From a virus: a stretch of DNA of 27,995 nucleotides. Under the pieces are notes generated by a model. That model saw only the letters and a list, made by a program, of their open reading frames with translations. It was not told where the DNA came from and ran no database searches. The stretch's first letter is position 1, and each line of letters opens with the position of its first letter. The stretch covers positions 1 through 27,995 of IMG/VR virus record IMGVR_UViG_3300012199_000005; one strand, given 5' to 3'. Made by a program: the position numbers and the translations under genes. Positions 5,567 through 13,722 of this stretch are shown piece by piece.

Positions 5567-5761
5567 ATGAGTAGATTTGGCTGTGATGCAGATAGACGTG
5601 GAGCGACGCCTCATGTTACGTCTTGCCCGACAGTTGCATTCTGCTTTGATACTAGCAAAGTTTCACCCAACTCAGCGACGGTCTTGCTTTACCGTTACGG
5701 GATGATGCCCTTCATACGGACAAGCCCTCTACATCACGGAGGTAGTATAGCATATGACTAG
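5567..5761 (+). CDS. Doubtful 64-aa reading frame
   Basis: A frame from ATG 5567 to TAG 5759-5761 reads through the gap between the membrane-anchored protein and the portal gene. It has no convincing ribosome site (GGGTGA is two bases from the ATG), and its product has an odd, Cys-, Ser- and Thr-rich composition without clear secondary structure. The same stretch on the minus strand has a promoter-like box (5744-5752) and strong base pairing, so it is more likely a non-coding element. It is listed so that the space is accounted for. Confidence 0.2.
   Translation: MSRFGCDADRRGATPHVTSCPTVAFCFDTSKVSPNSATVLLYRYGMMPFIRTSPLHHGGSIAYD
5622..5724 (-). ncRNA. Candidate minus-strand structured RNA in front of portal gene
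   Basis: Read on the minus strand, CTTGTCC (5724 to 5718) can pair with GGGCAAG (5628 to 5622), closing a 103-base region. Inside are ATGA/TCAT around AGGGCA, ACGGT/ACCGT around an 8-base loop, and CTTTG/CAAAG around the 7-base loop CTAGTAT. The box TGCTATACT lies about 20 bases upstream, so transcription would start about 13 bases before the closing helix. No known RNA family is recognised, and it is not a normal tRNA (no T-arm). The evidence is base pairing by eye plus the shared promoter box. Confidence 0.35.
5744..5752 (-). promoter_or_regulatory. Minus-strand extended -10 box TGCTATACT
   Basis: The minus strand reads TGCTATACT, a TG-N-TATACT extended -10 element. It abuts the portal start codon (5754) and overlaps the gap after its ribosome site. 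The same nine bases occur at 14498-14506 and 18380-18388, each time on the minus strand at the end of a gap before a structural gene. Confidence 0.5.
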
Positions 5762-10632: not shown

Positions 10633-11103
10633 ATGGCAGAGATTATCTCAGAATACACAGGAGAACCGTATGACCCTAGTTGGGGTACGCAGCTACAAAA
10701 GGGTAAGGAACTTCCTTTACGTAAGTGCTTGCAGTGCCACGAAATGAAACGAGAGGACTTCGATGATCGTTGTCAAGCGTGCTACGATGCGAACGAGCAG
10801 GAGTGTCATCGTCAACGTGAAGCGGGGGAACGTTTTCCCCTTGATAGAAACCTCATTGGATGGGCGTATGCCACCTCTCAACCAGGCTTATTTGATTATC
10901 TCTGGTATTTTCTCAAGTGGCTTTTCCGTCAAGAGCCAGTGATTGAAGCAGATCGTCCATATCGTTTTGCCAACGATGGGACACCGATCTATGGCTATCA
11001 ACCGATTGGGCGTTATATTCCTGCAACGAATGTTTGGGAACCTGCGCCGTATGTCAAAGATGAGTATGAGGATGCACAAAATGCCTATATCAGAGGTATG
11101 TAA
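10633..11103 (+). CDS. Zinc-ribbon protein, 156 aa
   Basis: A clean AAAGGAG site supports ATG 10633. The N-terminal part has CLQCHEMKREDFDDRCQACY, a CxxC-CxxC zinc ribbon (about residues 32-52), followed by a Trp- and Tyr-rich region (FDYLWYFLKWLFRQ) and a Pro- and Tyr-rich end. This may bind nucleic acid or protein; no family is known. It is first after its own promoter, between protease and capsid genes, where such insertion is uncommon. Confidence 0.6.
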   Translation: MAEIISEYTGEPYDPSWGTQLQKGKELPLRKCLQCHEMKREDFDDRCQACYDANEQECHRQREAGERFPLDRNLIGWAYATSQPGLFDYLWYFLKWLFRQEPVIEADRPYRFANDGTPIYGYQPIGRYIPATNVWEPAPYVKDEYEDAQNAYIRGM

Positions 11104-11105
11104 CC

Positions 11106-11318
11106 ATGCCTAACAATGAAGAAGTCCAGCAGGCGAGAGCCTGGCTAGAGATACACAAGCCTCGTACCTTCGAAGCACTTGACGCGATGGACGATGAGGC
11201 GAGGCGGCTCTACAAGCAGCATATGGATATCATCAAGGCGCATCTTGATGCATGGCTACAAGAGGTTGATCCTGAAGGATATGCCGCTTTACTGGCTGAA
11301 GTGACGAGGACTGGATGA
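11106..11318 (+). CDS. Hypothetical protein, 70 aa
   Basis: The start is two bases after the previous stop, so ribosome sharing is likely. It is a helical charged protein (EVQQARAWLEIHKPRTFEAL; MDIIKAHLDAWLQEVDPEGY). It overlaps the next gene by four bases. Family unknown. Confidence 0.55.
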   Translation: MPNNEEVQQARAWLEIHKPRTFEALDAMDDEARRLYKQHMDIIKAHLDAWLQEVDPEGYAALLAEVTRTG

Positions 11319-11665
11319 ATGAGATAGATGCTAAAGTGCTTGCAGCAGCGCAAGACTACAATCGGGAACGCGGCAAACCTCCGGCGTTAATTGTCGTTCA
11401 TCCTGAGATAGCAAAGCGTATGACCACTACATGCTTTCGTTTCCCTCAACTGCCTAAGTTGGGTGCGAGCGCATTTATACAAGCTGATATTGATCTGCAT
11501 GATGTGCCCCCGCCTAGCAGTATCAATGTAGTCAGTGTAGAGGTAAAGATACTTGATACCTCTCGCATGGAAATCTTAGAATATTTCCAGTCAAAAGACA
11601 GAATTGATTGCTTGGACGAGTATCAGGTTATGGAGGTAGTTATGAGACGAGGCAAGGACTGGTAG
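11315..11665 (+). CDS. Hypothetical protein, 116 aa
   Basis: ATG 11315 overlaps the previous stop. The protein looks like a soluble alpha/beta domain: an N-terminal helix (KVLAAAQDYNRERGK), then beta-rich PALIVVHPEI, a middle part with PPPSSINVVSVEVKILD, and a helix with MEILEYFQSKDRIDC. No motif recognised. Confidence 0.55.
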   Translation: MNEIDAKVLAAAQDYNRERGKPPALIVVHPEIAKRMTTTCFRFPQLPKLGASAFIQADIDLHDVPPPSSINVVSVEVKILDTSRMEILEYFQSKDRIDCLDEYQVMEVVMRRGKDW

Positions 11666-11670
11666 AAAAT

Positions 11671-11895
11671 ATGTGGTTCTTGAAGCGCTGTGTTGATTGT
11701 AATCATCTCTGCGCGGGTAAATGCCTTCTTTGCAAAAGGCCACTCTGTGCAATCTGTGCTTATACTATCGGTAGCGTGCATATGAGTGGCGGTCATTCGC
11801 CTGGCTTTCAAAAATGTCATGTTTGCAGGGAGGAAATAGACAGGCTAGCTATGAACTCTTTCCCGATAAAGTACCAGGGTAAGGTTTGGAGATGA
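11671..11895 (+). CDS. Cys-rich zinc-finger protein, 74 aa
   Basis: The start ATG 11671 is favoured because the protein begins MWFLKRCVDCNHLCAGKC, with no good alternative. It has about ten Cys and several His residues arranged in CxxC pairs (CVDC, CLLC, CAIC, CHVC) in a layout like a double zinc-binding B-box or RING-type domain. It ends KYQGKVWR. No strong ribosome site is seen. Function unknown; it sits right before the capsid leader. Confidence 0.55.
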   Translation: MWFLKRCVDCNHLCAGKCLLCKRPLCAICAYTIGSVHMSGGHSPGFQKCHVCREEIDRLAMNSFPIKYQGKVWR

Positions 11896-11919
11896 GTACT
11901 TACAAGCTGAATAGTTTTA

Positions 11920-11928
11920 TGTTATACT
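11920..11928 (+). promoter_or_regulatory. Extended -10 promoter for major capsid leader
   Basis: TGTTATACT, the same box as at 10606-10614, lies about 170 bases before the capsid start. A weak -35 candidate, CTTACA (18-base spacing), is present. It would start a separate, highly expressed transcript for the capsid gene. Confidence 0.55.
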
Positions 11929-11960
11929 ACCAATAACGACAGGCGCGGCCTCATCGCCCT

Positions 11961-12093
11961 GTGACCATAACAACCGAATACAACGCTGAGAAGGCGCTGA
12001 ATGTCTACCCTTCTGGCATAGAAAAAACTATGTTCAGAAGGTGAGATAGCAAACAGAAAAGCCTCCTTCTGAACACCACAGAAGGAGGCTTTT
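11961..12093 (+). promoter_or_regulatory. Capsid leader with alternative hairpins (attenuator-like)
   Basis: Four mutually pairing segments are seen. Segment 1 CCTTCTG (12009-12015) pairs with CAGAAGG (12035-12041). Segment 2 TGTTCAGAAGG (12031-12041) is perfectly complementary over 11 bases to CCTTCTGAACA (12065-12075). Segments 3 and 4 (12057-12071 and 12079-12093) form a perfect 15-bp hairpin with a 7-base loop. So 1:2 with 3:4, or 2:3, are exclusive folds. A 27-codon frame from GTG 11961 to TGA 12042-12044 crosses segments 1 and 2, but lacks a clear ribosome site. Upstream is another hairpin (ACAGGCG with CG-C-CCTGT, 11939-11961). The layout is like an attenuator or a ribosome-site switch for the capsid gene. 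Confidence 0.6.
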
Positions 12094-12096
12094 CTT
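12057..12096 (+). terminator. Intrinsic terminator-like hairpin that holds the capsid ribosome site
   Basis: A 15-bp perfect stem with loop AACACCA ends in TTTTCTT. The 3' arm is CAGAAGGAGGCTTTT, so AAGGAGG (12082-12088), eight bases from the GTG start at 12097, is buried in the stem. The hairpin can act as a terminator, as a cover of the ribosome site, or both. Confidence 0.7.
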
Positions 12097-13413
12097 GTGA
12101 ATGAGGAAGTAAAAAACCTTGTAGAAGAAATTCACAAATTAAATCGCCACTTGGACGAAAGAGTCCGCACCATCGAAGATCGGCAAAGCAAGACCGAAAC
12201 GAAGATCAGCCAGGGCGGACCGGTTGCGGCTGAGGCCAGGGCTGAACTGAACAAGATCAACGACAAGATCAGCAGCGAGATCAAAGAATACCGTAAGCTG
12301 GTAGCTGAACAAAAAGAGATGCAGCTTGCCGCACAACGCCCGCCTCCCACGAACGGCTATCGTGGCTCCAATGCTAGTTCGTACAAGCCGCTGGCAACGA
12401 AAGCGCTGGAAAAATGGATGCGCAAGGGCGGCGATGTGCAAGCGCTCACGATGGAAGAGCGCTCCTATATCGATTTCAACCACATGAACTGGGATATGTA
12501 CACCCCTGAGCAAAAAGTTATGGTGAGCGCCGCAGCCGATTTGGGTGGCTTCTTTGCTGGAACTGACCTTTCGGACAAGTTTATCCAAAAGCTGTTCTTA
12601 ATCTCCCCCCTACGCCAATATGCCGACACGGCCACCATCGGCGGTGAGAAGTTACTCATACCGAGCGAGGGGGCCACAGATACGAATATCTTCTGGTCTG
12701 ACGAGCAGACAGGATTCCAGGCCAGCCCTGACCCGAACCTGGGCATGATCGAGATTTACGCGAGAGAACTGAATGGCTATCTCAAACTCTCTAAGCAGAA
12801 CCTTGAGGACAGCGTCTTCGATGTGGAGGGCTACATCCTGAAGCGCCTCACCCGTCAATTTGCTCAGAAGGAAGGCACGGCCTTTATCAACGGGAATGGC
12901 GTAGCACGGCCTGAAGGCATCCTCACGGTGGCGGCGCTCTCAAACTACGGTGGCATGAATGGATTGCTCGGCACCAGCGCATCGCACCTGCTCCTACCAT
13001 CCGACATCATCTCCCTCATGCACGTTGGCAAATCGGGCTATCGTGCCACAGGCACATGGCTCATGAGCAACTCCACCATCGGGATATGCCGGCTGTTTGC
13101 AGATACTACGACACGCCCCTTATGGACTGTGTTTGGAGACGAGTTTAGGGAAACGTTATTCGGTCGGCCTATCGTAGAAATGCCTGACATGCCGAACCAG
13201 AGCGGTACCTTCCCAGCATTTGGAGCAGGTCAATTCCCTGTGATCTTCGGTGATATCGCGCAGGGTTATCAGATCGTTGATCGCGTAGGACTCACGTTCC
13301 AGACGCTCAAAGAATTGTTCGCCATTCAGAATCAGGTGGCTTTCCTGGCGCGTCAACGTGTAGGCGGCAAGGTAGTGCTCCCCGAGGCGATTTCAGTCCT
13401 GAAGATGATCTAG
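12097..13413 (+). CDS. Major capsid protein (HK97-type)
   Basis: The 438-residue product is the main shell protein. The first 75 residues are a charged coiled coil (EEIHKLNRHLDERVRTIEDR; EARAELNKINDKISSEIKEY) like the delta domain that is cleaved off by the prohead protease and acts as a built-in scaffold. The body fits the HK97 fold: ADLGGFFAGTDLSDKFIQKL, SPLRQYADTATIGGEKLLIP, GYLKLSKQNLEDSVFDVEGY, GTAFINGNGVARPEGIL, then TWLMSNSTIGICRLF and LFGRPIVEMPDMP near the end. The GTG start is set by AAGGAGG eight bases upstream, which lies in a hairpin (see regulatory entry). Confidence 0.92.
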   Translation: MNEEVKNLVEEIHKLNRHLDERVRTIEDRQSKTETKISQGGPVAAEARAELNKINDKISSEIKEYRKLVAEQKEMQLAAQRPPPTNGYRGSNASSYKPLATKALEKWMRKGGDVQALTMEERSYIDFNHMNWDMYTPEQKVMVSAAADLGGFFAGTDLSDKFIQKLFLISPLRQYADTATIGGEKLLIPSEGATDTNIFWSDEQTGFQASPDPNLGMIEIYARELNGYLKLSKQNLEDSVFDVEGYILKRLTRQFAQKEGTAFINGNGVARPEGILTVAALSNYGGMNGLLGTSASHLLLPSDIISLMHVGKSGYRATGTWLMSNSTIGICRLFADTTTRPLWTVFGDEFRETLFGRPIVEMPDMPNQSGTFPAFGAGQFPVIFGDIAQGYQIVDRVGLTFQTLKELFAIQNQVAFLARQRVGGKVVLPEAISVLKMI

Positions 13414-13437: not shown

Positions 13438-13722
13438 ATGTTAGATGCAAATGGGTTGTCAGTTGAAGAGGCAGCACCGGAAGCGGCTCCTATTGAGGAA
13501 GCGGCGCCCGCTCCATCTCGAAGTCGCAAACGGGCAGCACAGGCACAACCGTCCGTAGCAGGGAATTGCACCGGCGAGCTTGAGATGCTTCCCGATGTCG
13601 AGGGAACCACGTACCACGAATACACCTGCAAGGTCTGCGGCCAGGTGGTGCATGTCGGGCTTGAAGACCTGGAAGCAAATGGCTTGCCGCCAGAACACCA
13701 CAAACGTGAGGAGGATAAATAG
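13438..13722 (+). CDS. Small zinc-ribbon protein, 94 aa
   Basis: The N-terminal half is low-complexity, Ala-, Pro- and Glu-rich, then basic (APAPSRSRKRA). The C-terminal half has CTGELEMLPDVEG and YTCKVCGQVVHVGLEDLEAN, with a CxxC pair and further Cys and His, so one zinc site is possible. It lies between the capsid and connector genes, a position where capsid decoration or assembly proteins are often coded. Family unknown. Confidence 0.6.
   Translation: MLDANGLSVEEAAPEAAPIEEAAPAPSRSRKRAAQAQPSVAGNCTGELEMLPDVEGTTYHEYTCKVCGQVVHVGLEDLEANGLPPEHHKREEDK

Follow-up and report, generated by a model that had tools for sequence, protein, structure and literature searches.

The leader of the major capsid protein gene in this phage genome probably acts in cis as an RNA switch which is off by default and is turned on when a trans factor stabilises a set of tandem hairpins. 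This reading is drawn from leader sequences and folding models, and all of its support is comparative and computational. The analysed DNA, hereafter called the window, comprises the 27,995 bases of an IMG/VR virus record; portal, terminase, and head-protease genes are situated 5' of the capsid gene. Capsid relatives at 55-94% identity were taken from IMG/VR together with their upstream DNA, and their leaders were read for comparison. The window leader and the gene it precedes contain the following features:

11899-11929, plus strand: promoter-like site (-35-like CTTACA, 18-nt spacer, extended -10 element TGTTATACTA at 11920-11929)
11939-11962, plus strand: motif copy 1, ACAGG-[CGC]-GGCCTCATC-[GC]-CCTGT (descriptor scan; 26.3 bits with model R1; covariation)
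11961-12044, plus strand: 27-codon frame (proposed leader peptide), not conserved
11989-12014, plus strand: motif copy 2, the last one, AGAAGG-[CGC]-TGAATGTCT-[AC]-CCTTCT (27.5 bits for 11990-12013)
12009-12021, plus strand: segment 1 (CCTTCTGGCATAG), barred from the 1:2 hairpin once motif copy 2 folds
12028-12041, plus strand: segment 2 (CTATGTTCAGAAGG), partner of segment 1 or, via 12031-12041, of segment 3
12055-12075, plus strand: segment 3, with 12055-12071 as the 5' arm of 3:4 and 12065-12075 pairing with segment 2
12079-12096, plus strand: segment 4, with 12079-12095 as the 3' arm of 3:4, which includes AAGGAGG, and the U-rich CTTTTCTT at 12089-12096 reaching up to the GTG
12097-13413, plus strand: major capsid protein gene, GTG start (PHROG_10 match, E 3.7e-51)

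Alternative helices and promoter-like site of the window leader

As a whole, the leader folds at z -6.6, a value which none of 200 shuffles equals. An earlier note on this DNA had described a 1:2 hairpin and a perfect competing helix of 11 bp between segments 2 and 3, and both are present, the former with 13 pairs and one bulge (12009-12021 with 12028-12041; -16 kcal/mol, z -5.4), the latter between 12031-12041 and 12065-12075. Concerning the 3:4 hairpin, the same note had counted 15 perfect pairs; the hairpin is real, but the perfect inverted repeat extends over 17 bp (12055-12071 with 12079-12095; -28.6 kcal/mol, z -9.1). Its 3' arm contains the ribosome site AAGGAGG (12082-12088, at a distance of 8 nt from the capsid GTG at 12097) and is followed by the T-rich tail, just as had been stated. 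Segment 4 thus has the appearance of a terminator-like element that would also hide the ribosome site, and the U-rich run 3' of the 3:4 stem is compatible with a terminator.

Since the 3' strand of motif copy 2 constitutes at the same time the start of segment 1, motif copy 2, 1:2, 2:3, and 3:4 form a chain in which each structure excludes the next. Each of the three helices between the segments is maintained across 13 distinct long leaders, with 94% of the cells paired for 2:3 (at most 57% when slid) and 86% for both 3:4 and 1:2. Furthermore, the 2:3 helix exhibits a double change from U-A to C-G at one position in five sequences.

The note had also assigned to the leader an extended -10 promoter of its own. 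The element is located as listed above and is promoter-like by sequence; 0.18 such patterns per window are expected by chance, and two are seen. The second, TGCTATACTA at 5743-5752, lies on the minus strand and points leftward just before the start of the portal ORF. In the promoter-type relatives, TATA(C/A)TA stands 5' of the first motif copy, and we infer that transcription proceeds from the leader promoter.

A tandem internal-loop hairpin in the capsid leaders

The tandem motif, which had escaped the earlier note, consists of an outer stem, 5'-CGC or GCC, an inner stem-loop, RC, and the outer stem again, such that an asymmetric internal loop is formed. All of the 29 distinct leaders examined in this clade of uncultured soil phages possess it (curated copies), 23 of them in two and six in three tandem copies, the first copy of L038 being read by eye with an outer stem of 3 bp, as the script did not locate this copy as written. 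Conserved positions are C6 G7 C8 and R18 C19 of the internal loop; terminal loops vary, and the inner part measures between 6 and 16 nt in the curated copies. Each leader always contains only one type of the motif (CGC or GCC). The idea that these types mark different trans factors was dropped, because they interchange between close capsids. A reading of the motif as DNA operator is disfavoured, given that the outer stems vary with compensation and the loops vary in length.

A descriptor scan yields 54 motif matches in 8.25 kb of capsid leaders, whereas the other 177 kb of these loci contain 41, which amounts to a 28-fold enrichment. Among 17 curated copies, double changes are found in 8 of 10 pairs with a covariation score of 0.45 versus 0.21 when shuffled (0/500), a test which is partly circular, because the copies were chosen by pattern fit; the same applies to the pairing statistics in general, as the motif was first spotted by eye in these same leaders. 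In the records searched, the covariance model has its credible matches grouped at the capsid leader, the exception being one extra match in L004 before a cargo gene. At this place (L004:2558-2867), a cargo ORF (2625-2867) has a TATACTA promoter-like site of its own and a motif copy upstream (2580-2603), and a further copy is situated inside its 3' coding end (2836-2859).

Beyond this phage family, no credible occurrence of the motif was found by sequence search, neither in 39 loci of distant capsid relatives (28-34% identity) nor over viral contigs, where promoter-plus-motif patterns led, apart from the known leaders, to one new leader of the same family (L194) and to others that looked unrelated.

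This tandem hairpin is more likely to be the sensor than a leader peptide. The earlier note had suggested that translation of a 27-codon frame across segments 1 and 2 decides which fold is adopted. The frame indeed exists and ends just 3' of segment 2; however, its GTG lacks a ribosome site, and the frame is kept in neither position, phase, nor sequence. Short frames in the relatives differ in position, phase, and length and are likewise without ribosome sites, and four of the promoter-type leaders (L033, L035, L038, and L041) contain no frame of at least 6 codons. Attenuation by a ribosome that chooses the fold from this frame thus appears very improbable. Of the earlier overall interpretation, the exclusive folds are retained, and the leader peptide gives way to the tandem hairpin.

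Proposed mechanism and leader layouts

In growing-chain folding of the free RNA, motif copy 2 forms first, followed by 1:2 and then by 3:4. When motif copy 2 is locked, 2:3 forms (11/11) before segment 4 is made. At equilibrium, 3:4 of the long layout is so stable that forcing the motif does not open the ribosome site. Since 3:4 wins in the full-length RNA, this layout leaves room for control only while the RNA is being transcribed, as in attenuators; we therefore have to assume a kinetic effect and infer a co-transcriptional timing of the events.

Accordingly to this order of folding, motif copy 2 would be the first structure in the unbound window RNA. In the OFF state, segment 2 would invade it to build 1:2, and the 17-bp hairpin of 3:4 would form next to the U-rich stretch, such that transcription would end, AAGGAGG would be hidden, or both. 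In the ON state, a trans factor would keep motif copy 2 folded and segment 1 unavailable; segment 2 would pair with segment 3 as soon as the latter emerges, 3:4 would be prevented or delayed, and the capsid gene would be transcribed and translated. Capsid protein is probably made only when something holds the last hairpin folded.

The short leaders of relatives would reach the same ON sign in a simpler way. In these, the 3' strand of the last motif (typically UCUACC) pairs directly with the ribosome site, a pairing that beats shuffles in most of them, and forcing the last motif opens the site in most, the predicted openness typically rising from 0-0.3 to 0.5-0.9.

A third layout is found in an outlying clade (L028, L029, L031, L036, and L039), where 28-35 nt separate the end of the head-protease gene from the capsid start and the 3' coding end of this protease gene harbours the motif copies. 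The ribosome site is complementary to the last copy in each of these phages (p <=0.022); in the folding model, the forced motif opens the site in this clade only for L029 and L036, and it leaves the site unopened in L028, L039, and L031 as well as in L019. The protease 3' end bears the motif in five out of five distinct phages in which the protease abuts the capsid gene. Among the other listed phages, in which a greater distance separates the protease 3' end from the capsid gene, a descriptor match exists only in L018 and is of chance-like quality (the entry of L012 in this list is a differently read frame). This contrast constitutes a natural control against a protein-coding explanation.

This proximity of protease and capsid gene, with the motif copies in the coding end, would suit a switch without ligand, in which the hairpins set only the order of folding and ribosomes arriving from the upstream gene open the site. 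Such a translation-coupled or kinetic switch is nevertheless unlikely: the promoter-type leaders have no conserved translated frame, and a purely kinetic role would explain neither the conserved internal loop nor the constant retention of upstream copies that overlap nothing. Because of these same two properties, a default-OFF leader with a hairpin-stabilising factor is the simplest account, and it is the conserved internal loop and the extra copies that point to a trans factor.

In the window, promoter, hairpins, and terminator-like hairpin form a closed unit, as would be the case for a small RNA gene, the product of which (around 160 nt) would act in trans, e.g., as a protein sponge, while the capsid ribosome site merely overlaps its terminator. 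This is a rather improbable explanation, slightly more so than the translation-coupled one, given that a close promoter of this kind is missing in L004, L017, L018, L019, and L024 as well as in the outlying clade, that the latter has its copies inside the protease gene, and that pairing of the motif with the ribosome site is kept in layouts of differing sequence.

In the capsid tree, the outlying clade forms one group. The other kinds of leader, namely short, long type-1, and long type-2 (8, 7, and 5 changes), are dispersed over capsids that are close to one another. Leaders seem to be swapped as cassettes, with the ON logic kept. In each of the layouts, folding of the last copy should, according to the models, either free the ribosome site or prevent the terminator. 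The claim of the earlier note that exclusive folds control the ribosome site or terminator of the capsid gene gains support both from the conservation of the helices and from this equal outcome in short and coding-embedded leaders. Comparison and computation show the motif in its tandem arrangement as well as the alternative helices and the way in which these exclude one another.

Comparison with known systems and genomic setting

Structural genes of dsDNA phages are usually described as being under the control of promoters and processive antitermination. A literature search, in which few subscription journals were covered, yielded no case of a major capsid gene under a conserved RNA switch. 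There is about an even chance that the leaders represent a new class of RNA, one that senses a ligand by tandem hairpins, serves specifically the major capsid gene of a phage clade, and keeps the same ON logic across direct-pairing, four-segment, and coding-embedded architectures. With a conserved tandem RNA element on the capsid gene, phage assembly would gain a new point of control, and the search for a new RNA-binding factor would gain a starting point; regulatory logic would be retained while the architecture is swapped between phages.

Judged by analogy, the closest mechanism is that of the ANTAR dual hairpins. In the targets of EutV, NasR, and AmiR, tandem leader hairpins precede an intrinsic terminator; in the ANTAR model, a dimeric factor binds to them, the terminator is prevented, and the gene is switched on (PMC3369931). 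The capsid leader equally possesses tandem hairpins upstream of a terminator-like hairpin, and by computation its last copy excludes either 1:2 or the helix at the ribosome site. However, the hairpins of ANTAR targets end in hexanucleotide loops, in which position 1 is A and position 4 is G (PMC3369931), whereas the capsid motif lacks this signature, its conserved part being the internal loop and its terminal loops being variable. The ANTAR domain (PF03861) gave no match in 10 phage records, and the control genomes gave no match either.

The RAT antiterminators of BglG, SacY, and LicT are small hairpins with asymmetric internal loops, the stabilisation of which excludes a terminator. By description, the capsid motif resembles them as a small hairpin with an asymmetric internal loop and an antitermination-like logic; in contrast to them, it is always present in two or three copies. 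The corresponding RNA-binding domain (PF03123, CAT_RBD) was matched in four genomes of the control and in none of the 10 phage records, some of which are fragments.

The put RNA of phage HK022 is likewise a phage leader, with two stem-loops carrying bulges; it suppresses termination by acting on RNA polymerase and does so over long distances (PMC9378689). A cis antitermination RNA of this kind, which acts directly on the polymerase and needs no separate ligand, would agree with the phage context, with the presence of two hairpins shortly 3' of the promoter, and with the terminator-like hairpin that the last of them abuts. We nevertheless regard it as highly unlikely: the last hairpin of the capsid leader physically overlaps a competing helix and excludes it by base pairing, which put would not need, copies also occur inside the protease gene with no close promoter, and copy number and spacing vary.

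With trp-type attenuators, the window leader shares the division into four segments, the conserved helices 1:2, 2:3, and 3:4 that exclude one another, and the terminator-like character of 3:4, but it differs from them in having no conserved leader peptide and in possessing an additional tandem hairpin upstream, which is the likely sensor. Riboswitches encoded by phages are known as well, e.g., the glutamine riboswitch at ssrA (PMC9004378). The capsid leader is similar to them as a structured cis-RNA in a phage and differs in the gene concerned and in its standing in Rfam, where no family reached its gathering score and lax thresholds gave weak sub-threshold matches only.

Concerning the nature of the trans factor, our guess is a phage late protein, because an integrase-family gene is present in two relatives (L003 and L024), which may be temperate; alternatively, the factor may be a host protein or a small molecule. 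A temperate life, with silencing of the capsid gene in the prophage, is plausible from the same gene. The shared genes that were tested revealed no known RNA-binding domain. Searches for a host by capsid in species-representative bacterial and archaeal genomes found best relatives at no more than 37% identity and thus no host, and the terminase likewise led to none.

Some further genes of the window may be mentioned. A Dam-like N6-adenine methyltransferase gene (PF05869; 4785-5375) is situated between terminase and portal. Between head protease and capsid there is a variable cargo region (10633-11895), which includes a Cys-rich, zinc-ribbon-like ORF (11608-11895); in the upstream DNA of the examined relatives, nothing matches the cargo ORFs of the window, and the cargo of these relatives differs in length. 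Directly 3' of the capsid gene follows a small gene (13438-13722), the homologue of which in the L024 phage sits elsewhere, on the minus strand of L214.
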